Shown: one piece after another, positions 6,847 to 38,494 of the stretch
How positions within the stretch are numbered: position 1 is the first letter of the stretch
Layout of the letters: the number at the start of each line of letters is the position of its first letter
Source of the DNA: Veillonellales bacterium
Lineage (GTDB): Bacteria > Bacillota > Negativicutes > Veillonellales > Dialisteraceae
NCBI GenBank assembly: GCA_944390485.1
Contig: CALXPQ010000001.1
Location: 62,001 to 126,000, forward strand
DNA: 64,000 bases
Reading direction: 5' to 3'
Translations under genes and position numbers: made by a program
Notes under the pieces: model-generated
Seen by the model: only the letters and a program-made list of their open reading frames with translations
The model's database searches: none
What the model was told of the DNA's origin: nothing

Positions 6847-7362
6847 ATGTCCATACGGCGGATGAATGCAATGGCCCTGCTCACGGGGCTCTCCCTCATC
6901 CTGTTCGTCATCGAGATGCAGGTGCCCCCGCCGCTGCCGCTTCCCGGAGTGAAGATCGGCTTGGCGAACGTGGTCACCGTCTACGCGGCGTACCGCTTCC
7001 GGCCGGGCGAGGTCCTCATGATTCTCCTCGCGCGCATCTTTCTCGCCGCGATTTTCGCCGGGCAGGCGGCGGCCCTTCTCTACAGCCTCGCCGGCGGGCT
7101 CTGCTGCCTCGCGGGCATGCTTCTCCTGAAGCATGTGCTTCCGCTCCGGCGGCTCTGGCTGACCAGCATCATGGGAGCCGTGCTCCACAATGCAGGCCAG
7201 ATCGCCGCGGCCATTCTCATTCTCGGCACCAGCTCTGTCGCCGCCTATTTTCCCATCCTCGCCCTGACCGGCGCCATCGCCGGCGCTTTCACCGGCCTCA
7301 TCGCCCAGCATATCCTCCTTCGCTGGCCGATGCTCGACCGGTGGGTCAGTGAGACCGTCTGA
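6847..7362 (+). CDS. Gx transporter family membrane protein (heptaprenyl diphosphate synthase component I-like)
   Basis: A 171-residue, very hydrophobic protein with five or six helices and the family signature PLPGVKIGLANVVTVYA, then MILLARIFLAAIFAG and the small-residue helix LTGAIAGAFTGLIAQHILL. It resembles ECF S-components. Despite the common database name it is probably a transporter, not a prenyl synthase. Its neighbours ApbE and NusG_II suggest movement of a flavin or related cofactor across the membrane. The ATG follows a strong GGAGG site 22 bases after the upstream stop. Last gene of the flavodoxin-ApbE run, followed by a terminator. Confidence 0.82.
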   Translation: MSIRRMNAMALLTGLSLILFVIEMQVPPPLPLPGVKIGLANVVTVYAAYRFRPGEVLMILLARIFLAAIFAGQAAALLYSLAGGLCCLAGMLLLKHVLPLRRLWLTSIMGAVLHNAGQIAAAILILGTSSVAAYFPILALTGAIAGAFTGLIAQHILLRWPMLDRWVSETV

Positions 7363-7370
7363 ATTTCCAG

Positions 7371-7394
7371 AGACCGCAAGCGCGGTCTTTTTTT
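7371..7394 (+). terminator. Rho-independent terminator of the flavodoxin/ApbE operon
   Basis: Seven-base-pair stem AGACCGC/GCGGTCT with a four-base loop, followed by eight T residues. Confidence 0.9.
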
Positions 7395-7402
7395 ATGCAG
7401 AA

Positions 7403-7456
7403 AAATCGGGATTCCGATTTATCGGCTTGACAGGCAAAATTTTAGCGGCGCATAAT
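7403..7456 (+). promoter_or_regulatory. Promoter with operator-like inverted repeat for the two-gene system
   Basis: TTGACA (7427-7432), an 18-base spacer, then CATAAT (7451-7456) form a strong promoter. Seven bases upstream of the -35 box is a perfect inverted repeat AAATCGG-gatt-CCGATTT (7403-7420), which could be a repressor or activator site. No regulator gene is adjacent. Confidence 0.65.
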
Positions 7457-7489
7457 AAAGGTGCTTATAACATTTTTTGAGAGGCGTTT

Positions 7490-7672
7490 ATGGACGAGAA
7501 AAAAGAACAGACCTATAACGGCCGAGGCAATGTGCTCCAGTCAGCCAAATATCGGAACCGCAAAACGAAAGAAGAGACCGACGATGTGTTCGGGCTGATT
7601 CCGGAAGAAACGGCAGAATTTGGTGCAGAGGGGGCAGTCAGGAATCTGCGCCGGCTGTTTCCGAAGAAATAG
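7490..7672 (+). CDS. 5' part of the membrane/nuclease-like gene, ended by an apparent frameshift
   Basis: Codes for 60 residues starting MDEKKEQTYNGRGNVLQSAK, with the ribosome site GAGAGG in front and the promoter above. The first 47 residues look like a real, hydrophilic N-terminus. Past the GGGGG run at 7630-7634 the frame that remains protein-like is the one of the gene at 7684: it reads GGSQESAPAVSEEIAAKDM into that gene's first methionine. Adding one G to the run would join both parts into one protein of roughly 625 residues. The cause may be a sequencing error, a real mutation, phase variation or recoding. Confidence 0.55.
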   Translation: MDEKKEQTYNGRGNVLQSAKYRNRKTKEETDDVFGLIPEETAEFGAEGAVRNLRRLFPKK

Positions 7673-7683
7673 CGGCAAAAGAT

Positions 7684-9369
7684 ATGGCACTGTCCTCCGG
7701 GGCAGCGCAGGAAGCGGGGCGGCAGACCGTGGCGCTGAACCGCCTCAATGCGGAGCAGGGCGCGGGCTACGCCGCGGAAATGGCAAACGATTTACTCGAC
7801 CGGATGCACGGCGTAGATTCCCACATTGTGGGTAATGACAATGCAGAAAACGGCGCGGACCGCTGGGTCAATGGTCAGCTTGTGCAGTGTAAATATTGCC
7901 AGAGCGCGGCAGATTCTCTGCGGAATGCATTCAATCCAGGCGGAGGAAAATATCGTTATATTGATAAAGACACAGGGCAGCTTATGCAGGTGGAAGTGCC
8001 CAGTGATCAATATGAGGAAGCTGTCGAGCTCATGCGGAAATATATTCAGGACAATCGTGTGCCCGGTGTAACGAATCCCGATGACGCCGTCAAATTGGTA
8101 CGAAAAGGGCGTATTGATTATAAGACGGCTTGCAATATTGCTAAAGCGGGCAATATTGATTCCATCCTGTTTGATTCGGCAAAAGGGGCAATCGTCGGAT
8201 TGAGTGCGCTGGGAATTTCCGGAGCCATCGTCTTTGCCAAGGCCATCTGGGACGGCGAAGATGTGCAGCAGGCCATGGACGAAGCGCTCGTGTCCGGTTT
8301 GCAGGCGGGCGGCGTGGGATTCGCTTCCTATGTGCTGTCGGCGCAGCTTTTCCGGACCAATGCAGCCAAGTTGCTGCAGGTGCCGGCGCGGGCTATGGTA
8401 GATCTCCTGCCGAAGGGTTCGGCAAAAAAAATGCTGCCTGCACTTCGCAGCGGGAATGCAGCGCAGACGGTCAATAAAGACATGCTGGCGACAGCCATCC
8501 GTTCTCAGGTCATCGCCGCAGCGGCTACGGTGCTCGTCATGTCGTCGGGGGATATTATAAATTGCTTTAGGGGACGTATTTCCGGGAAGCAGTTATTCAA
8601 AAACATGACCATACTTTCAGGGAGCGTCGGGAGCGGTCTACTCGGTGGAGCCGGTGGTGCGTATGCAGGGGCTGCTTTAGGTATGGCTATAGCAGGACCG
8701 GCGGGGATGGCCATCGGAGCAAAAGTGGGAGCTGTAGTGGGTGGTATGACCGGCGGCGCGGCGGGCGGAAGCGCCACGAAAGCCGCCATGGATGCGCTTA
8801 TCGAAGACGATGCGGTACAGATGGTGGGCATCCTCGAGAGCCGCATCGTGCCTCTTACGCAGCAGTACCTTCTGAGTGAAGAAGAATTGTCCATCGTGCT
8901 GGACGATTTGCAGAGGGAGCTTATTCAGGACAAATTGAGGGATATGTACGCGTCGGACAACCGGGAGGCTTTTGCAGACGATTTGTTGACAACGCTCATC
9001 CGCCGGGTGGTTGGCTTCCGCGTGCGGGTGAGAGTACCCCGCGGTCGGGCGGCTGCGCAAAGCCTCGAACGTATCCTTGCGCGGACTGCCGCTGGAAAAA
9101 GCGCGCTGCTTCCGCGGAAAAAAGCGGACCCGCAGGCGGTGGCGCGGGCCGTGCTTGGCCGGGAAGTGTCTAAACCGGCCGCGAAAAAAGCGTGGTACGC
9201 CACAAAGCAGATGCATATCGTCACGAAACAGCAGGAGGGCGACCTTCTGGAAATCAAAAATGCCGAAGCGAAGCATGAGGAAACCATGCGCGTGCTCCGG
9301 GAAAAACAGGCAGAAGCCATGGAACAGATGAAACACTGGACAGAGGGGGAAAAAGAGAATGGCAAATAA
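7684..9369 (+). CDS. Unrecognised protein: nuclease-like N-terminus and glycine-zipper membrane region
   Basis: 561 residues as read; probably the main part of a gene beginning at 7490, since its own ATG has no clear ribosome site. Near the N-terminus, GVDSHIVGNDNAENGADRW leads into VNGQLVQCKYC. The spacing Asp59-x8-Gln68-x-Lys70 resembles the D...QxK core of Mrr-like PD-(D/E)xK nucleases; this is inference. Residues about 163-190 form a hydrophobic helix. Residues about 309-366 are glycine/alanine-rich with repeated G-x3-G spacing (SGLLGGAGGAYAGAALG), a glycine zipper typical of membrane-inserting proteins. The C-terminus is basic and then coiled-coil. It overlaps the next gene by 11 bases. 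I recall similar proteins only as hypothetical. Confidence 0.7.
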   Translation: MALSSGAAQEAGRQTVALNRLNAEQGAGYAAEMANDLLDRMHGVDSHIVGNDNAENGADRWVNGQLVQCKYCQSAADSLRNAFNPGGGKYRYIDKDTGQLMQVEVPSDQYEEAVELMRKYIQDNRVPGVTNPDDAVKLVRKGRIDYKTACNIAKAGNIDSILFDSAKGAIVGLSALGISGAIVFAKAIWDGEDVQQAMDEALVSGLQAGGVGFASYVLSAQLFRTNAAKLLQVPARAMVDLLPKGSAKKMLPALRSGNAAQTVNKDMLATAIRSQVIAAAATVLVMSSGDIINCFRGRISGKQLFKNMTILSGSVGSGLLGGAGGAYAGAALGMAIAGPAGMAIGAKVGAVVGGMTGGAAGGSATKAAMDALIEDDAVQMVGILESRIVPLTQQYLLSEEELSIVLDDLQRELIQDKLRDMYASDNREAFADDLLTTLIRRVVGFRVRVRVPRGRAAAQSLERILARTAAGKSALLPRKKADPQAVARAVLGREVSKPAAKKAWYATKQMHIVTKQQEGDLLEIKNAEAKHEETMRVLREKQAEAMEQMKHWTEGEKENGK

Positions 9370-11227
9370 GAAGGAACTGTCGCTGGTGGATGCGGAAGTG
9401 CTCACGCCGGACGAAAAGACGGAACTCAATACGGAGATCGACCGCATCATCGAAGCGCATAAGGCGAATCGGAAAGAAATCAACCGGCTCGTTTTCGAGA
9501 GCGTATCCGCCATGACTGAAGCGGACGAAGCAGGCGCAAAGCTTGCCGGCAAAGGATTCTTTAGTCGGTTTATCGGCAACATCACCGGCAGCAACCAGAA
9601 ACTGCAGAATAAGATTAACAGCAGCCGCGCCGCGGCGCAGTACGCCTCGCAGCAGACCTTGCAGAAGCTGGCCGAACAGAATCTCATGAGCTTCGACCTC
9701 ATCACGGCGGTGAATAACAAGTTGAATGCATCTATGCAATCCGTGGGCGAGGGCTTCCAGATGATTTTCACAGGGCTGGAAAAATTCTTCAAGCATAACC
9801 GGAACGAAATGGTTCGTCTGGAAATGCGCATGGACAAGGTAGAGCGGAACGTGAAGCTCCTTACGTGGCAGAACTCCATCGAATATCTGGACTTCAACGG
9901 CGAAGAATACACGGATATGGACGACGCGAAGAAAATCGTCTGCCTTGTGCGCGATTTCTATGACATTACCGGCGGCGATTATTCCACATCTGACCTGCTT
10001 CTCCTGAAGGCAGCCATGGCAACTATCGACATTGAGCCGAAGTCGCAGGTGAATTACGGAGCGATTCTGGAAGAAATTGCGGAAAGTGATGTACTGAAAG
10101 ATAAACTCCTCGGCGGGAAACGCATCCGTCCCGTGTCCGACCCGGGCTATCTTATCGCCATGAGCGGCCTCCAGAAAATGGACGCATTGCAGAACGAAGA
10201 AAAATACACGGTAGACACCGTGGCAGATTATGTGTCGAAATACGACAGCACCATCACGGCGGAAACCATCAGCCGCGACCTCACGGCTAGTTACCTTCGC
10301 GACGCGGCGGGCGTGGATGTGAATCTGGAGCTGGACAGCTTCGATATGGTATTGGACCTCCTGTACAATTTGAAACAGGCTGATGAAGAGCATCTTCTCA
10401 TTTCGTTGGAAGACGCAGATACCGTTTTGCTTGAAAGTGAAACTAATGTAAAAGAGAAAGAATTACAAATTTCATCTAAAGCGGAATCGCATGAGGAAGA
10501 AGAGAGTAATAAAGAAGACGTTTTACAATTAAAATCCGCGGAAGAATTCTTTTTTAGTTATCAACTAGAAGAAGCTTATAAAATTTTTACGAAGCTGGCG
10601 GATAGAGGGAATGGTCGTGCTATGTATTTTCTTGGCGAATACTGTGCTTTTGGATATGTGCCAGAAAAGAAAGATCCTGTACAAGCAGATGAATGGTGGC
10701 GAAAAGGCGCAGACGCTGATGATCCACTTGCAATGATTCATTATGCGGTATCACTTCCTAAAACTTCTAATAAAAGGGAAAAACTGTTAGAGGAATGTGT
10801 CGTAGAGATCATAACTTTGGCAGAGAAGGGGGATTTGATGGCCCAGAATGAAGCAGCACAAATGTATAAGCAAGGGTACGGTGTGGAGAAGAATGAAAAG
10901 AAGGTAAAGGAGTGGTTAACGAAATCCGCTGATGAAGGGTTTTGGCTTTCGGAAAATCAGCTTGGAAGTTACTATTATCAAAAAGAAATTTATGACGAAG
11001 CGGTTTCGTGGTTTAAGCAGGCTGCAATGAAAGGTTTTTCTGTAGCGCAAAATAATTTGGGGAAATGTTATTACGAAGGAAATGGCGTAAAGAAAAGCCT
11101 AAAAGAGGCTAGAAAATGGTTTGAAAAAGCAGCAGCGCAGGGAAATAAACGAGCGGCTGATGCCTTAAAACATATGGATAAAGACAAAGTTGTAGTGGTT
11201 GGCGGGTTTTTGTCAGGGATGTTTTGA
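9359..11227 (+). CDS. Unrecognised coiled-coil protein with C-terminal Sel1-like repeats
   Basis: 622 residues, starting 11 bases inside the end of the previous gene, so the two are translated together. Residues 1-345 are mainly helical, with a coiled coil near 142-165 (EMVRLEMRMDKVERNVKLL), and match the GC-rich style of the upstream gene. From about base 10405 base composition drops sharply to AT-rich. The protein passes through an acidic linker (KAESHEEEESNKED) into at least four Sel1-like repeats, for example AQNNLGKCYYEGNGVKKSLK and AMYFLGEYCAFGYVPEKKD. Sel1 repeats usually mediate protein-protein contacts. No enzyme motif or signal peptide is visible. The AT-rich half looks like a separately acquired module. 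Confidence 0.75.
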   Translation: MANKKELSLVDAEVLTPDEKTELNTEIDRIIEAHKANRKEINRLVFESVSAMTEADEAGAKLAGKGFFSRFIGNITGSNQKLQNKINSSRAAAQYASQQTLQKLAEQNLMSFDLITAVNNKLNASMQSVGEGFQMIFTGLEKFFKHNRNEMVRLEMRMDKVERNVKLLTWQNSIEYLDFNGEEYTDMDDAKKIVCLVRDFYDITGGDYSTSDLLLLKAAMATIDIEPKSQVNYGAILEEIAESDVLKDKLLGGKRIRPVSDPGYLIAMSGLQKMDALQNEEKYTVDTVADYVSKYDSTITAETISRDLTASYLRDAAGVDVNLELDSFDMVLDLLYNLKQADEEHLLISLEDADTVLLESETNVKEKELQISSKAESHEEEESNKEDVLQLKSAEEFFFSYQLEEAYKIFTKLADRGNGRAMYFLGEYCAFGYVPEKKDPVQADEWWRKGADADDPLAMIHYAVSLPKTSNKREKLLEECVVEIITLAEKGDLMAQNEAAQMYKQGYGVEKNEKKVKEWLTKSADEGFWLSENQLGSYYYQKEIYDEAVSWFKQAAMKGFSVAQNNLGKCYYEGNGVKKSLKEARKWFEKAAAQGNKRAADALKHMDKDKVVVVGGFLSGMF

Positions 11228-11251
11228 TCAGAACATTCGCGAAAGAATCAT

Positions 11252-11280
11252 TTGACAAAATTTCTCTGTTCCTGTAGTAT
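11252..11280 (+). promoter_or_regulatory. Promoter of the trp operon
   Basis: TTGACA, 17-base spacer, TAGTAT (with TG in front of the -10 box). The transcript would begin about 11287 and run into the T-box leader. Confidence 0.75.
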
Positions 11281-11299
11281 GAGAACAACTTCATACAAC

Positions 11300-11590
11300 A
11301 ATACCTATTTCTTCTGAGAAATCGGAAGAGAAACCGCAGAGGCGGAGATAACGGCGGATCGTGCACTTACAGGGAGCTGGGAGAATGAGAATCCAGCAGA
11401 ACGCAGACTGTCAAATGGACCGCTGAGGGCGCAGGGGAAAGGGAACGAGTATCCTGCGACGTGAGGCTTACGTCAGTAGCCGGGGATATGATGGTATCCC
11501 GACAAAGTGCAGGAGTCAAATCCTGAAGCAAGGTGGCACCGCGGAGATACTGTATCCGTCCTTGACAAGATTGTCAGGGACGGATTTTTT
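11300..11590 (+). promoter_or_regulatory. T-box leader, tryptophan specific, upstream of trpD
   Basis: The T-box sequence AGGTGGCACCGCGGA lies at 11531-11545 and is followed by a terminator hairpin CCGTCCTTGAC/GTCAGGGACGG with a T run (11556-11589). Upstream, a stem I-like hairpin GCTGG/CCAGC is followed by TGG at 11416-11418, a tryptophan codon in the place expected for the specifier. Stem III may be GGGATA/TATCCC. Uncharged tRNA-Trp should favour the antiterminator and switch on trpDCBA. The T-box itself is certain; the exact specifier is inferred. Confidence 0.9.
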
Positions 11591-11693
11591 GTTGGCCGTC
11601 CCGGAAGGGAGAGCAGCATGGATGCGATGAGACGATGGCCGGGCTTCTTTTATGAAAGGCGGAACGATTTTGTAAAAGAAAGGACGGCATATC

Positions 11694-12722
11694 ATGATTA
11701 CCGAAGCAATCAGATTACTGGCAGAGAAACGGGACCTTGACTTCCGGCAGGCGGAGGCGAGCGTCTATGAGATGATGGATGGCACGGTGAGCGCGGCGCG
11801 GACGGCGGCGTTCCTCACGGCGATGAAGCTCAAGGGGGAGACGCCGGAAGAGATCGCCGGCGCGGCATCAGGCATGCGGGCCCACGCGCTCCCCATGTCG
11901 TACCCCGGGCGGCTCCTCGAGATCGTCGGCACCGGCGGGGACGGGTCGAATTCGTTCAATATTTCCACCACGGCGGCGTTCGTCACCGCGGCGGGCGGCG
12001 TAAAGGTGTCGAAGCACGGGAACCGCGCGGCGTCGTCGAAGTGCGGTGCGGCGGACGTGCTGGAGGCACTGGGCGCGAATATCCGGCAGGAGCCGGATGC
12101 GGCGGCGCACCTGCTGGACACGGTGGGCATGTGTTTCTTCTTCGCCCCGCTGTACCACCGGGCGATGAAATATGTGGGGCCGGTGCGGAAGGAGCTGGGC
12201 ATCCGGACGATCTTCAATATTCTCGGGCCGCTCACGAATCCGGCCCGCGCGGCGTATGACTGCATCGGCGTGTACGATGCGGCGCTGGTGGAGCCCATGG
12301 CGGAGGTGCTGGACCGGCTGGGGACGGAGCGGGCGCTCGTCTTCTACGGGCTGGACGGCATGGACGAGATCTCGCCGTCGGCGGAGACGAAGGTGTGCGA
12401 GCTGAATCACGGCGCGCGCCGGACGTACAGGCTCCGGCCGGAGGATTTCGGCCTCGCCCGCGGGCGGAAGGAAGACCTCGTCGGCGGGGACGCGGCGGAG
12501 AATGCGGCCATCACGGAAGCAGTGCTCTCCGGCCGGCGGGACGGGGTGTACGAGACACGGCGGAACGCGGTGCTTCTCAATGCGGGGGCGGCGTTCTACG
12601 TGAGCGGACGCACGGCGTCCATCGCGCGGGGCGTGTCGCTGGCGGCGGCACTCATCGACAGCGGCCGGGCGCGGGAGACGATGCACGCCTTTGTCCGGGC
12701 GTCGCAGGAGGCGGCCGTATGA
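11694..12722 (+). CDS. trpD: Anthranilate phosphoribosyltransferase
   Basis: Joins anthranilate to PRPP, the second step of tryptophan synthesis. 342 residues, normal length. The glycine-rich PRPP site reads EIVGTGGDGSNSFNIST, followed by KHGNRAASSKCGAADVLEALG and the ELGIRTIFNILGPLTNPA segment. It is the first gene of trpDCBA, about 105 bases after the T-box terminator, with a good GGA ribosome site. The usual upstream genes trpE and trpG are not present here. The last four bases overlap trpC. Confidence 0.97.
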   Translation: MITEAIRLLAEKRDLDFRQAEASVYEMMDGTVSAARTAAFLTAMKLKGETPEEIAGAASGMRAHALPMSYPGRLLEIVGTGGDGSNSFNISTTAAFVTAAGGVKVSKHGNRAASSKCGAADVLEALGANIRQEPDAAAHLLDTVGMCFFFAPLYHRAMKYVGPVRKELGIRTIFNILGPLTNPARAAYDCIGVYDAALVEPMAEVLDRLGTERALVFYGLDGMDEISPSAETKVCELNHGARRTYRLRPEDFGLARGRKEDLVGGDAAENAAITEAVLSGRRDGVYETRRNAVLLNAGAAFYVSGRTASIARGVSLAAALIDSGRARETMHAFVRASQEAAV

Positions 12723-13525
12723 TCCTAGAACGGCTGGCGGCAGCGTCCCGGCGGCGCGCCGCAGAGATGAAAAGAGACGGGCGGGCCGCGCGCCTCCATG
12801 AAGCGGCGGAAGGATTCCGCACGGACGGCGGGCGGCGCTTCCGGGAGCGGATCGCCGCGCCGGGGCTGTCCCTCCTGTGCGAGCTGAAGAAGGCGTCCCC
12901 CTCGAAGGGCGTCATCGCGGAGGATTTTCCATATCTGGCCATCGCGAAAGAGTATGAGGCGGCGGGAGCGGCAGCAGTATCATGCCTCACGGAGCCGGAC
13001 CATTTCCTCGGCTCTCTGACGTATCTGCGGGAAACGGCCGCCGCAGTGGCTATCCCGGTGCTGCGGAAGGATTTCCTCACGGACGAATGCCAGATCGAGG
13101 AGGCGGCGCTCGCCGGGGCGTCGGCGGTGCTCCTCATCGCGGCGATGCTTACGGACGGAGAGCTGGTCCGCCTGCTCCGCCGGGCGGAAACGCTGGGCCT
13201 CGCGGCGCTCACGGAGGTGCACAGCGAAGGAGAGCTTTACCGGGTGCTCGCCGCCGGGGCGGATATCGTGGGCATCAATCACAGGGACCTGCGGGATTTC
13301 TCGCTGGACCTGTCGCTCACGGAGCGGCTGCGGCCGCAGGTCCCGCAGGGCGTCCTCGTCGTCGCCGAGAGCGGGCTCATGAGCCGGGACGACGTGCGGC
13401 GCATGAGGGAGGCCGGAGCGGACGCAGTGCTCATGGGCGAGGTGCTCATGCGGGCGGCGGACCGGGGTACGCTGCTCCGGCAGCTGATCGAAGAGAATCG
13501 GGAAGAACGGAGGGAAAACAGATGA
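12719..13525 (+). CDS. trpC: Indole-3-glycerol-phosphate synthase
   Basis: Closes the indole ring from CdRP, the fourth tryptophan step. The start ATG at 12719 overlaps the trpD stop (ATGA), giving 268 residues, the usual size for a single-function TrpC. Signature segments are [15 protein letters not shown] (catalytic lysine region), [33 protein letters not shown] and [10 protein letters not shown]. There is no fused TrpF domain; trpF is found separately at 25595. Its stop overlaps the trpB start. Confidence 0.96.
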
Positions 13526-14700
13526 AGGGGAGATTCGGACTATTCGGCGGGCAGTATGTGCCGGAGACGCTCATGAGCGAGGTGCTCCGCGTCGAAGAGG
13601 CGTATGAAACGTATAAAAACGATCCGCAGTTCCTGGCGGAGCTCGCGGACCTGAACCGGAATTACACGGGGCGGCCGTCCCTCCTGTACGAGGCGAAACG
13701 CCTGTCCGCCGACCTCGGCGTGAAGGTGTACCTGAAGCGGGAGGACCTGAACCACACGGGAGCGCACAAGATCAACAACTGCATCGGGCAGGCGCTGCTC
13801 GCGCGGCGCATGGGAAAGACGCGGCTCATCGCGGAGACCGGCGCGGGCCAGCACGGTGTGGCGGCGGCGACGGTGGCGGCGCTCTTCGGCATGGAGTGCG
13901 AGGTCTACATGGGCGAGATCGACACGGAACGGCAGGCGCTCAACGTGTACCGCATGCGGCTCCTCGGCGCGAAGGTCCACGCGGTGAAGACCGGCTCCCG
14001 CGTGCTGAAGGATGCGGTGAACGCGGCGATGCAGGACTGGAGCGCCCGTTGCGGGGACACGCATTATCTCATCGGCTCGGCGGTGGGGCCGGCGCCGTTC
14101 CCGGAGATGGTGCGGGATTTCCAGAGTTGCATCGGCCGGGAGATGCGGGAAGAGCTCCTCCGCCGGGAAGGGCGGCTCCCCGACGCGGTGGTGGCCTGCG
14201 TAGGCGGCGGGAGCAACGCCATCGGCACGTTCTATCCCTTCGTGCAGGATGAAGGCGTGCGGCTCGTGGGCTGCGAGGCCGGCGGGAAGGGCGTGGACAC
14301 GCCGTACCATGCGGCGACCATGGCGCGGGGCCGCACGGGCGTCTTCCACGGCATGAAATCGCTCTTCTGCCAGGATGAGGACGGAAATATCACGGAAGTA
14401 TATTCCATCTCCGCAGGGCTGGACTACCCGGGCGTCAGCCCGGAGCACGCCGAGCTCCATAGGGCGGGCCGGGCGGAGTACATCGCCGTCACGGACGAAG
14501 AAGCGGTCGCGGCCTTCGAATACCTGGCGCGCACGGAGGGCATCATCTGCGCCATCGAGAGCGCGCACGCCGTGGCGGGAGCCGTCCGCACCGCGAAGAC
14601 GCTGCCGCCGGGGAGCGTCATGGCCGTTACGATTTCCGGCCGCGGGGACAAAGATGTGGCGGCCATCGCCCGCTACCGCGGGGAAGCATTGCGGGACTGA
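13522..14700 (+). CDS. trpB: Tryptophan synthase beta chain
   Basis: Condenses indole with serine using PLP. 392 residues from ATG 13522, which overlaps the trpC stop by four bases. The PLP lysine motif is [11 protein letters not shown], the indole tunnel segment is [11 protein letters not shown], and the phosphate-binding loop is [20 protein letters not shown] at the N-terminus is the classical TrpB1 start. It partners TrpA, encoded ten bases downstream. Confidence 0.97.
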
Positions 14701-35710: not shown

Positions 35711-38494
35711 ATGATGACAGATACCGAACAGCGCGCCGCCGCGAAAAAATTTGCCGCCTACTGGAAAGGGAAGGGCTATGAGAAAGGACAGAGCCAGCCC
35801 TTCTGGCTGTCTCTCCTTCGGGACGTGTACGGCGTAGCGGAACCCGAAGCGTACATCGAATTTGAAGACAAGGTCATGCTCGACCACACGAGCTTCATCG
35901 ACGGCATGATCCCCGCCACGCACGTCCTCATCGAGCAGAAAGAGCTCGGCAAGAATCTGCGCAAGGCCATCCCGCAGTCCGACGGCTCGCTCCTGTCGCC
36001 GTACCAGCAGGCCCTGCGCTACTCGGCGAACCTGCCCTACTCGAAGCGGCCCCGGTACATCGTGACGTGCAACTTCTCCTCCTTCCTCGTGTACGACATG
36101 GAGCATCCTCAGTCCGAGCCGGAAGAGATCCTGCTGGAAAATCTGCCGAAGGAATATTACCGGCTGAATTTCCTCGTGGATAGCGGGGACGACCACCTGA
36201 AAAAAGAGCTGGAAGTGTCCGTCGCCGCTGGCGACCTCGTGGGCCGCCTCTACGACGCACTCCTCAAAAAATATATCGACCCCGAAAAGGAAGAGACGCT
36301 GAAAAGCCTGAACGTGCTCTGCGTGCGCCTCGTCTTCTGCCTCTACGCGGAGGACGCGGGCATCTTCGGCGGGCGCGCCATGTTCCACGACTACCTCGAA
36401 GGCTTCCGCCCGGAAAACATGCGCACCGCCCTCATCGACCTCTTCCAGATGCTCGACACGAAAGAAGAAGACCGCGACCCCTACGAGAAAGAAGAGCTCC
36501 TCGCCTTTCCCTACGTGAACGGCGGCCTCTTCTCCGATGAGCACATCACCATCCCGCGTCTCGACGACGACATCCGCACCCTCCTCCTGGACGAATGCAG
36601 CGAAGGCTTCGACTGGAGCGAGATCAGCCCCACCATCTTCGGGGCCGTCTTCGAGAGCACCCTGAACCCGGAGACGCGCCGCCACGGCGGGATGCATTAC
36701 ACCTCCATCGAGAACATCCACAAAGTCATCGACCCGCTCTTCCTGACAGATCTGAAAAAGGAACTGGACCGCATCCTCCGGGAGCCGGCGAAGCGCACCC
36801 GCCACGCGCATCTCCGGGCGTATCAGGAAAAGCTGGCGGGCCTCCGCTTCCTCGACCCGGCGTGCGGCTCCGGGAATTTCCTCACCGAGACCTATCTTTC
36901 CCTCCGGCGGCTCGAGAACCGCGTCATCGATGAGCTCACCGGCGGGCAGATGGTGCTGGGCGAGCTGGCCAATCCCATCCGCGTCTCCATCAGCCAGTTT
37001 TACGGCATCGAGATCAACGACTTCGCCGTCACCGTCGCGAAGACCGCCCTCTGGATCGCCGAGAGCCAGATGATGAAAGAGACGGAAGCCATCGTTCACA
37101 TGGAGCTCGACTTCCTGCCCCTCAAGACGAATGCCTACATCCACGAAGGGAACGCTCTCCGCATAGACTGGGAGACCGTTGTCCCGACAGGGGAGCTTTC
37201 CTACATCATGGGTAATCCGCCATTCGTTGGCGGCATGTACATGAGTACTGAACAGAAAAAAGAAATTCGTGAATTATTTCCAAAAGTAAAAGGAGCAGGG
37301 GAATTTGATTATGTTACGGGGTGGTATAAAAAGGCTGTGGAATTTGCAGCGCCATTACAGGTAAAATGTGCTTTTGTATCAACAAACAGTATTTGTCAGG
37401 GAAGTCATGTAATTACTTTCTGGAAATATTTAATGACAACTTTTCCCATTCATATTGATTTTGCTTATGATACTTTTATCTGGGAAAGTGAATCAAAAAG
37501 CAAAGCAAGTGTCTATTGTGTGATTGTGGGATTTTCAGGACCTTTTAGTAAGGAAAATGAAAAACTTTTATTTGCAGATAATGGGAAGTACAAAAAATGC
37601 ATTCATATTAGTCCGTATTTGATGGATACACCGACAGTTTTTATTGATTCAAGAAGCACTCCATTATGTGATGTTCCTAAAATGCGATTTGGTAGCATGC
37701 CAAGAGATGGAGGGGGATTTATTCTTTCGGAGTCAGAAAAAGCTGAATTGATAGAAAAGGAACCGATAGCGGAGAAATGGATTCATTTATATCTTGGCGG
37801 GAATGAATTTATTAAAGGGAAAAAACGTTATTGTTTATGGTTAGTGAATGCGAATCCAGCAGAAATTAATAAATGTCCAAGTGTAAAAAAACGGATTGAA
37901 CAGGTAAGGGATATGCGTTTGGCATCTAAAGCGGCGGCCACTCGCAAATTTGCGGAAACACCGACGTTATTTTGCCAGATTGCTCAGCCGGATTGTGATT
38001 ATTTAATGGTACCGGAAACATCTTCGGAACGAAGACGGTATATCCCTATGGGATTTATGAGTAAGGATGTAATCGCAAGCAATGCGGCATATTTGATTCC
38101 TGGGGTAAATAAATTTCATTTTGGTGTTTTAACATCCAATGTGCATATGGCATGGATGCGCGTTGTCGCGGGACGGCTGAAAAGCGATTACCGGTATTCG
38201 AAGGATATCGTGTACAACAATTTCCCCTGGCCGGAGCCGGACGAGGCGCACCGCGCCGCCATCGAGCGGACCGCGCAGGGCATACTCGACGCGCGGGCGC
38301 GCTATCCCGACGCGAGCCTTGCTGACCTCTACGACGAGCTCACCATGCCGCCGGACCTGCGCCGCGCCCATCAGGAAAACGACAAGGCCGTCATGACCGC
38401 CTACGGGTGGAACTGGCGGGGCATGACCGAATCCGACTGCGTGGCCGAGCTCATGAAACTCTATCAGAAGCTCGCCGCCGCGGCGGACCGGTGA
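35711..38494 (+). CDS. MmeI-like single-chain restriction-modification enzyme (type IIL/IIG)
   Basis: 927 residues combining nuclease and methyltransferase. The N-terminal PD-(D/E)xK site is Asp64-x10-Glu75-Gln-Lys77 (in DGMIPATHVLIEQK), as in MmeI. A helical connector follows, then the gamma-class adenine methyltransferase: SAM motif LDPACGSGNFL at about 381 and catalytic NPPF at about 502. The target recognition region follows. Bases roughly 37190-38155 (residues about 494-815) are strikingly AT-rich, while both ends are GC-rich, so this part has been exchanged or acquired. The C-terminus is intact (NNFPWPEPDEAHRAAIE). Such enzymes methylate one strand and cut outside the site. The 8-bp repeat lies just upstream. 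Confidence 0.9.
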   Translation: MMTDTEQRAAAKKFAAYWKGKGYEKGQSQPFWLSLLRDVYGVAEPEAYIEFEDKVMLDHTSFIDGMIPATHVLIEQKELGKNLRKAIPQSDGSLLSPYQQALRYSANLPYSKRPRYIVTCNFSSFLVYDMEHPQSEPEEILLENLPKEYYRLNFLVDSGDDHLKKELEVSVAAGDLVGRLYDALLKKYIDPEKEETLKSLNVLCVRLVFCLYAEDAGIFGGRAMFHDYLEGFRPENMRTALIDLFQMLDTKEEDRDPYEKEELLAFPYVNGGLFSDEHITIPRLDDDIRTLLLDECSEGFDWSEISPTIFGAVFESTLNPETRRHGGMHYTSIENIHKVIDPLFLTDLKKELDRILREPAKRTRHAHLRAYQEKLAGLRFLDPACGSGNFLTETYLSLRRLENRVIDELTGGQMVLGELANPIRVSISQFYGIEINDFAVTVAKTALWIAESQMMKETEAIVHMELDFLPLKTNAYIHEGNALRIDWETVVPTGELSYIMGNPPFVGGMYMSTEQKKEIRELFPKVKGAGEFDYVTGWYKKAVEFAAPLQVKCAFVSTNSICQGSHVITFWKYLMTTFPIHIDFAYDTFIWESESKSKASVYCVIVGFSGPFSKENEKLLFADNGKYKKCIHISPYLMDTPTVFIDSRSTPLCDVPKMRFGSMPRDGGGFILSESEKAELIEKEPIAEKWIHLYLGGNEFIKGKKRYCLWLVNANPAEINKCPSVKKRIEQVRDMRLASKAAATRKFAETPTLFCQIAQPDCDYLMVPETSSERRRYIPMGFMSKDVIASNAAYLIPGVNKFHFGVLTSNVHMAWMRVVAGRLKSDYRYSKDIVYNNFPWPEPDEAHRAAIERTAQGILDARARYPDASLADLYDELTMPPDLRRAHQENDKAVMTAYGWNWRGMTESDCVAELMKLYQKLAAAADR

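Follow-up and report, generated by a model that had tools for sequence, protein, structure and literature searches.

A Mobile Two-Gene Locus Pairing a Putative Membrane-Held Nuclease With a Sel1-Repeat Protein, a Candidate Immunity Module

Two overlapping genes, here called A and B, were analyzed in a 64,000-nucleotide stretch of a Veillonellales bacterium contig (the window). We favor, with slightly better than even confidence, the reading that A and B form a horizontally spread immunity module, probably acting against phages or plasmids, in which A is a membrane-held nuclease that is triggered through B. The evidence comes from the predicted fold of A and its invariant residues, its glycine zipper and C-terminal tail, the linkage of B to A, the mobility of the pair and the neighbors of the relatives of A.

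Layout of the A-B Locus

Gene A (positions 7684..9369) encodes 561 amino acids counted from the first in-frame ATG, comprising a nuclease domain, a hydrophobic glycine-zipper region and a helical tail, and gene B (9359..11227) encodes 622 amino acids. The two genes share 11 bases where A ends and B starts, as described in an earlier sequence-only reading of the window, and both, like the other features whose coordinates are written with two dots, are on the forward strand. That reading had also proposed a strong private promoter with an operator-like repeat. A sigma-70-like promoter, TTGACA-18-CATAAT (11/12), is indeed present at 7427..7456 as the sole site found in the interval, where 0.4 sites would be expected, and it is conserved in the loci of relatives, being retained in an alignment 5' of both A-B copies of the sister genome G001 and 5' of the remnant in another, G002. 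The repeat was also found, immediately 5' of the -35 box, as an imperfect inverted repeat (7397-7426, no strand assigned) with 13-nt arms (7397-7409/7414-7426) that are 85% complementary; it was not seen 5' of the G001 copies in the same upstream alignment. An intrinsic terminator-like site at 7369..7390 belongs to the upstream gene, and Rfam at gathering thresholds returned no RNA within 7000-11800. Downstream, at about 11290-11590, the leader before trpD looks T-box-like (AAGGTGGCACCGCGG, then a terminator-like stem); this leader is conserved in G001 and G002 and has no Rfam match at gathering thresholds.

The sequence-only reading overlooked the true N-terminus of A, which is encoded by a 60-codon ORF at 7490..7672 with the motif GNVLQSAKYRNRK, in a different frame from the remainder of the gene. 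In the relatives, a conserved peptide, GNVLxNxKYRKQ, at the start is in the same frame as the nuclease domain, and the reading frame of the window gene is interrupted between 7490 and 7684. A run of G residues at 7630-7634 is situated in the region of this break and would be consistent with a mutation or with an assembly error. The window gene may be broken, may restart at 7684 or may contain an assembly error, all three being compatible with the sequence, and as a consequence of the break the window copy may be non-functional. We do not claim programmed frameshifting, since in the relatives a single frame encodes both the motif and the nuclease. In one G001 copy, too, the N-terminus of A is out of frame, by a different change, and B contains a stop codon; the second G001 copy has A whole in a single frame. 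An ORF called 5' of A in another locus (L065) was discarded because of its internal stops.

Protein A Has a Predicted PD-(D/E)xK-Type Nuclease Domain

Pfam gave no match for A at E 1, and Foldseek searches of the whole protein against PDB and BFVD gave no useful match; since the latter were uninformative, the nuclease domain was folded by itself. Residues 25-155 (7756..8148) had formed a confident alpha/beta fold in the full-length AlphaFold model, and the domain-only model (pLDDT 86), in which a helix is followed by three strands and then a helix, predicted a PD-(D/E)xK-type core, the outcome for which the sequence-only reading had proposed such modeling as a check. The best neighbors of the domain-only model were PaqCI (Z 5.8), XisH (5.5), a Pyrococcus repair endonuclease (5.2) and Hjc (5.1), with MspJI, VRR_NUC, BglII, FokI and HindIII at lower ranks and the contact-dependent toxin nuclease CdiA-CT also among the fold matches. 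Though all the matches are weak (best Z 5.8; no Foldseek E < 0.1), the list is consistent, the neighbors being mostly PD-(D/E)xK enzymes. When the nuclease domain was used as a profile against PDB sequences, only chance matches resulted.

Four residues of this domain, E32, D59, Q68 and K70, are unchanged in 72/72 relatives, which represent many phyla and are ~30-60% identical; three of them make up the motif D59-x8-Q68-x-K70. An alpha/beta core, conserved acidic residues and a (D/E/Q)xK element, the features of the PD-(D/E)xK superfamily, are thus all present, and based on sequence and model together A is probably a DNA-cutting enzyme. The motif had previously been likened to that of Mrr-type nucleases. 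The motif and the PD-(D/E)xK fold stand, but the more specific Mrr assignment does not, as the Mrr_cat profile of Pfam was unmatched by A and the Mrr family was absent from the Pfam matches of 73 A relatives.

The Zipper Region and the C-Terminal Tail

The nuclease domain is followed by a hydrophobic helical region (residues 158-373; 8155..8802) in which hydrophobic stretches begin near residues 165-171, 267-277 and 319-335. This region includes the hydrophobic helix and long G-x3-G zipper noted in the sequence-only reading: there are 11 GxxxG pairs in the 76 residues from 300 to 375, a number reached by 0/2000 shuffles (mean best ~2.5). The zipper (residues 315-373) has low model confidence (pLDDT < 50) and is conserved in composition, not in exact sequence. 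It resembles the zippers of tape-measure proteins, as seen in PHROGs matches, which we took to be look-alikes rather than a sign of kinship. We infer that the zipper region anchors A in the membrane.

A further helical part separates the zipper from the C-terminal tail of the window protein (residues 450-561; 9031..9366). Detectable homology to this tail was confined to A proteins with a B partner and one truncated by a contig end. In the A tree, six B-paired proteins and the contig-end protein form a 100/100 clade, and one further B-paired protein is in a second small group. The tail is therefore a candidate for the part of A onto which B docks.

Protein B and Its Linkage to A

Protein B consists of a conserved N-terminal half of about 345 amino acids without a known family (9359..10393) and a low-GC, less conserved half of Sel1-like repeats (10514..11170; Pfam PF08238, E 8.9e-23). 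The expectation that these repeats are variable was borne out: repeat number and sequence differ among B proteins, and between the window protein and its G001 counterpart the Sel1 half is 46% identical vs. 68% for the N-terminal half. The GC3 of the Sel1 half is 0.33, that of the N-terminal half 0.69, and these contrasts in identity and GC3 fit a separately acquired, fast-changing sensor half.

To assess linkage, B was searched for independently of A in 380 Negativicutes genomes and was found in 21. This neighborhood search, which the earlier reading had suggested, placed A directly 5' of 16/18 close B copies, in 14/15 genomes, often with overlapping ORFs; the exceptions were two B copies in G002, a genome without A. 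Some loci have two B genes for one A, situated before and behind A in L018 (8200-9903, 11640-13691) and in tandem in L141 (8314-10506, 10546-12261), the former being the only locus seen in which B precedes A. Most A relatives, however, have no B, which implies that B is not a constant component and is not needed everywhere. The proposal of a two-gene system accordingly holds for the close B copies and not for the A family at large.

The Window Copy is a Foreign Insertion

In G001, trpD and the transporter-like gene upstream are separated by ~500 nt without A-B, i.e., the interval is an empty site, and the two A-B copies of this genome are at other places. In G002 the same interval has a B gene with a broken frame and no A. 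The two G002 B genes (L132 5975-8089 on G002:C1 and L131 6004-7941 on G002:C19) differ in condition, as one is the start-broken gene in this interval and the other is apparently intact with its own promoter-like upstream region. The GC3 of A is 0.61 and that of both halves of B, given above, is likewise below that of the flanking genes (0.82-0.88), and the A tree crosses phyla. On this comparative sequence evidence the window copy is a mobile, foreign insertion. The pair had been described as sitting between housekeeping operons with no mobile genes, a view we revise because, given the empty site in a sister genome, the pair itself is the inserted element.

A Belongs to a Large Family That Includes YeeR

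More than 80 A relatives were recovered from one scan of genome contigs, and by sequence A is a member of a large, horizontally spread, uncharacterized family that includes full-length Escherichia coli YeeR. YeeR, encoded on CP4-44 and related islands, has the same order of nuclease core and glycine-zipper helical region, is 37% identical to the window protein over the N-terminal 284 amino acids and has the identical invariant residues. It differs in having ~400 additional N-terminal residues with membrane segments, an extension not present in A, which starts near the nuclease domain, and in having no B partner. A YeeR match was found in 2,560/5,426 complete E. coli genomes (about half), 1,780 of which have a near-full gene, and the K-12 yeeR is truncated, with ~60% of the gene carried (PMC6480617).

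The N-terminal parts of the family vary: there may be none, a domain shared with BnzA, a long membrane part, or a zinc-ribbon with Sel1 repeats. The last is found in L049, where the Sel1 repeats are fused to the A core, and in L085 a separate Sel1 gene adjoins the core. Members of the family occur on phages (L010 and IMG/VR contigs), plasmids (Selenomonas, Lactococcus) and E. coli CP4-type islands; in L010, an Oscillospirales phage, the A relative (9416-11368) is an extra gene after the endolysin. A small family of about 112-158 amino acids, which may be another partner, is encoded directly behind four A relatives (L023 11365-11838, L040 1871-2233, L041 6011-6346, and L059 11370-11795).

Relationship to Known Defense Systems

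Among the systems compared, the PADLOC phage-defense candidate PDC-M09B has its parts in the order seen in A, with a D-x8-QxK motif (ADYMIDGVDVQSK) and, after it, a glycine zipper. Its profile matches A relatives with E values down to 2.8e-12, and in L097 full-length PDC-M09A and PDC-M09B are followed, after 37 nt, by a YeeR-type A in the same operon. The A family is distantly related to PDC-M09B. At E 1 the window protein itself was not matched by PDC-M09B. The partner gene, M09A, is dissimilar to B and is not adjacent to the window A, and B had no match in PADLOC. No test of PDC-M09 was found in the literature searched.

Bunzi, a reported anti-phage system, is linked to the family through the N-terminal ~130 amino acids of BnzA (6-145), which match the extension of the clostridial A relatives with E values down to 2.4e-23. 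The window A has no such domain, the remainder of BnzA is unmatched by A, and full-length BnzA had no match in the window A (PADLOC) or in the relatives. The resemblance to LeoBC of PADLOC (E 6.5e-4) does not extend to the whole protein and covers only the zipper and the adjoining helical flank (A residues 307-455 on profile positions 447-570 of 601). With regard to B, Avs5 is reportedly activated through a C-terminal TPR/Sel1 repeat domain, and in Avs5 and other TPR/Sel1-repeat sensors the repeat domain is the proposed sensor (PMC12931631), as we propose for B. Unlike the Avs/STAND sensors, neither A nor B had a STAND ATPase domain in a Pfam search.

The neighbors of A relatives match PADLOC models for BREX, Dnd, Iet, DRT, Abi proteins and WYL regulators. 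In L050 a SIR2-TPR protein of 1064 amino acids (11337-14531) overlaps the end of the A relative by ~28 bases, and among the A-B loci, L139 has an EcoP15I-like restriction subunit and L144 a Type I-like helicase immediately downstream of B. That A relatives occur among defense genes, as the sequence-only reading anticipated, was found, but a near-vs.-far PADLOC comparison gave no separation: genes 6-10 kb from A relatives match defense models too, which is attributed to both sets being within the same islands. Some of the 46 window ORFs also match defense models, making them a poor null. As the survey has no fair null, the defense context is suggestive only. The window also has a full-length MmeI-like Type IIG restriction-modification enzyme at 35711-38494 (PDB 5hr4, E 3.2e-194; PADLOC REase_MTase_IIG, E 0).

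Proposed Mechanism and Alternatives

In the mechanism we favor, A would be a PD-(D/E)xK-type nuclease held at the inner membrane by its hydrophobic glycine-zipper region, and B would dock onto the C-terminal tail of A via its conserved N-terminal half. The fast-changing Sel1 repeats would read a phage or plasmid protein, upon which B would release or assemble A, which would then cut DNA near the membrane.

The zipper could instead be the killing part, with a signal from B causing A to oligomerize and permeabilize the membrane in abortive infection, and the nuclease fold merely binding nucleic acid in sensing. The extreme number of GxxxG pairs and the matches to tape-measure zippers and to the LeoB C-terminus in PADLOC are in keeping with such a pore. 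We consider it rather unlikely, however, as a mere binder would not need the invariance of E, D, Q and K in every relative compared, and it is the zipper that retains composition rather than exact sequence. The locations of A-family members on phages, plasmids and CP4-type islands could also reflect upkeep of the mobile element itself and not host defense, whether by stabilizing a plasmid or prophage or by superinfection or entry exclusion, and phage-borne defense genes would look identical. Many members, however, are chromosomal and near restriction and other defense genes, and we regard upkeep as unlikely.

A toxin-antitoxin pair or inter-bacterial toxin, with B as immunity protein or antitoxin, would account for the tight overlap of the genes, the CdiA-CT match and the joint decay of both genes in one G001 copy. 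An obligate partner gene, as expected of toxin-antitoxin systems, is nevertheless not seen, since no B accompanies most A relatives, among them YeeR in about 2,500 E. coli genomes. Moreover, B persists without A in G002 and precedes A only in L018, where a B is also behind A. We consider this explanation very unlikely.

Beyond the immunity module proposed for A and B, we suggest tentatively, with confidence somewhat short of even, that A represents a new class of immunity effectors, very widespread membrane-tethered nucleases (YeeR/PDC-M09B-like) in which one core, cutting DNA at the membrane, is plugged into interchangeable sensor parts: a BnzA-like domain, a membrane domain with a zinc-ribbon-like motif, fused Sel1 repeats, or a separate Sel1 partner like B. 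One nuclease-zipper core would then connect the candidate PDC-M09, the domain shared with Bunzi and the Sel1-repeat partner proteins. This offers a testable function for a family whose genes occur in many phyla and in about half of the complete E. coli genomes, and the truncation of the laboratory K-12 copy suggests a reason why the function of YeeR may have escaped notice.
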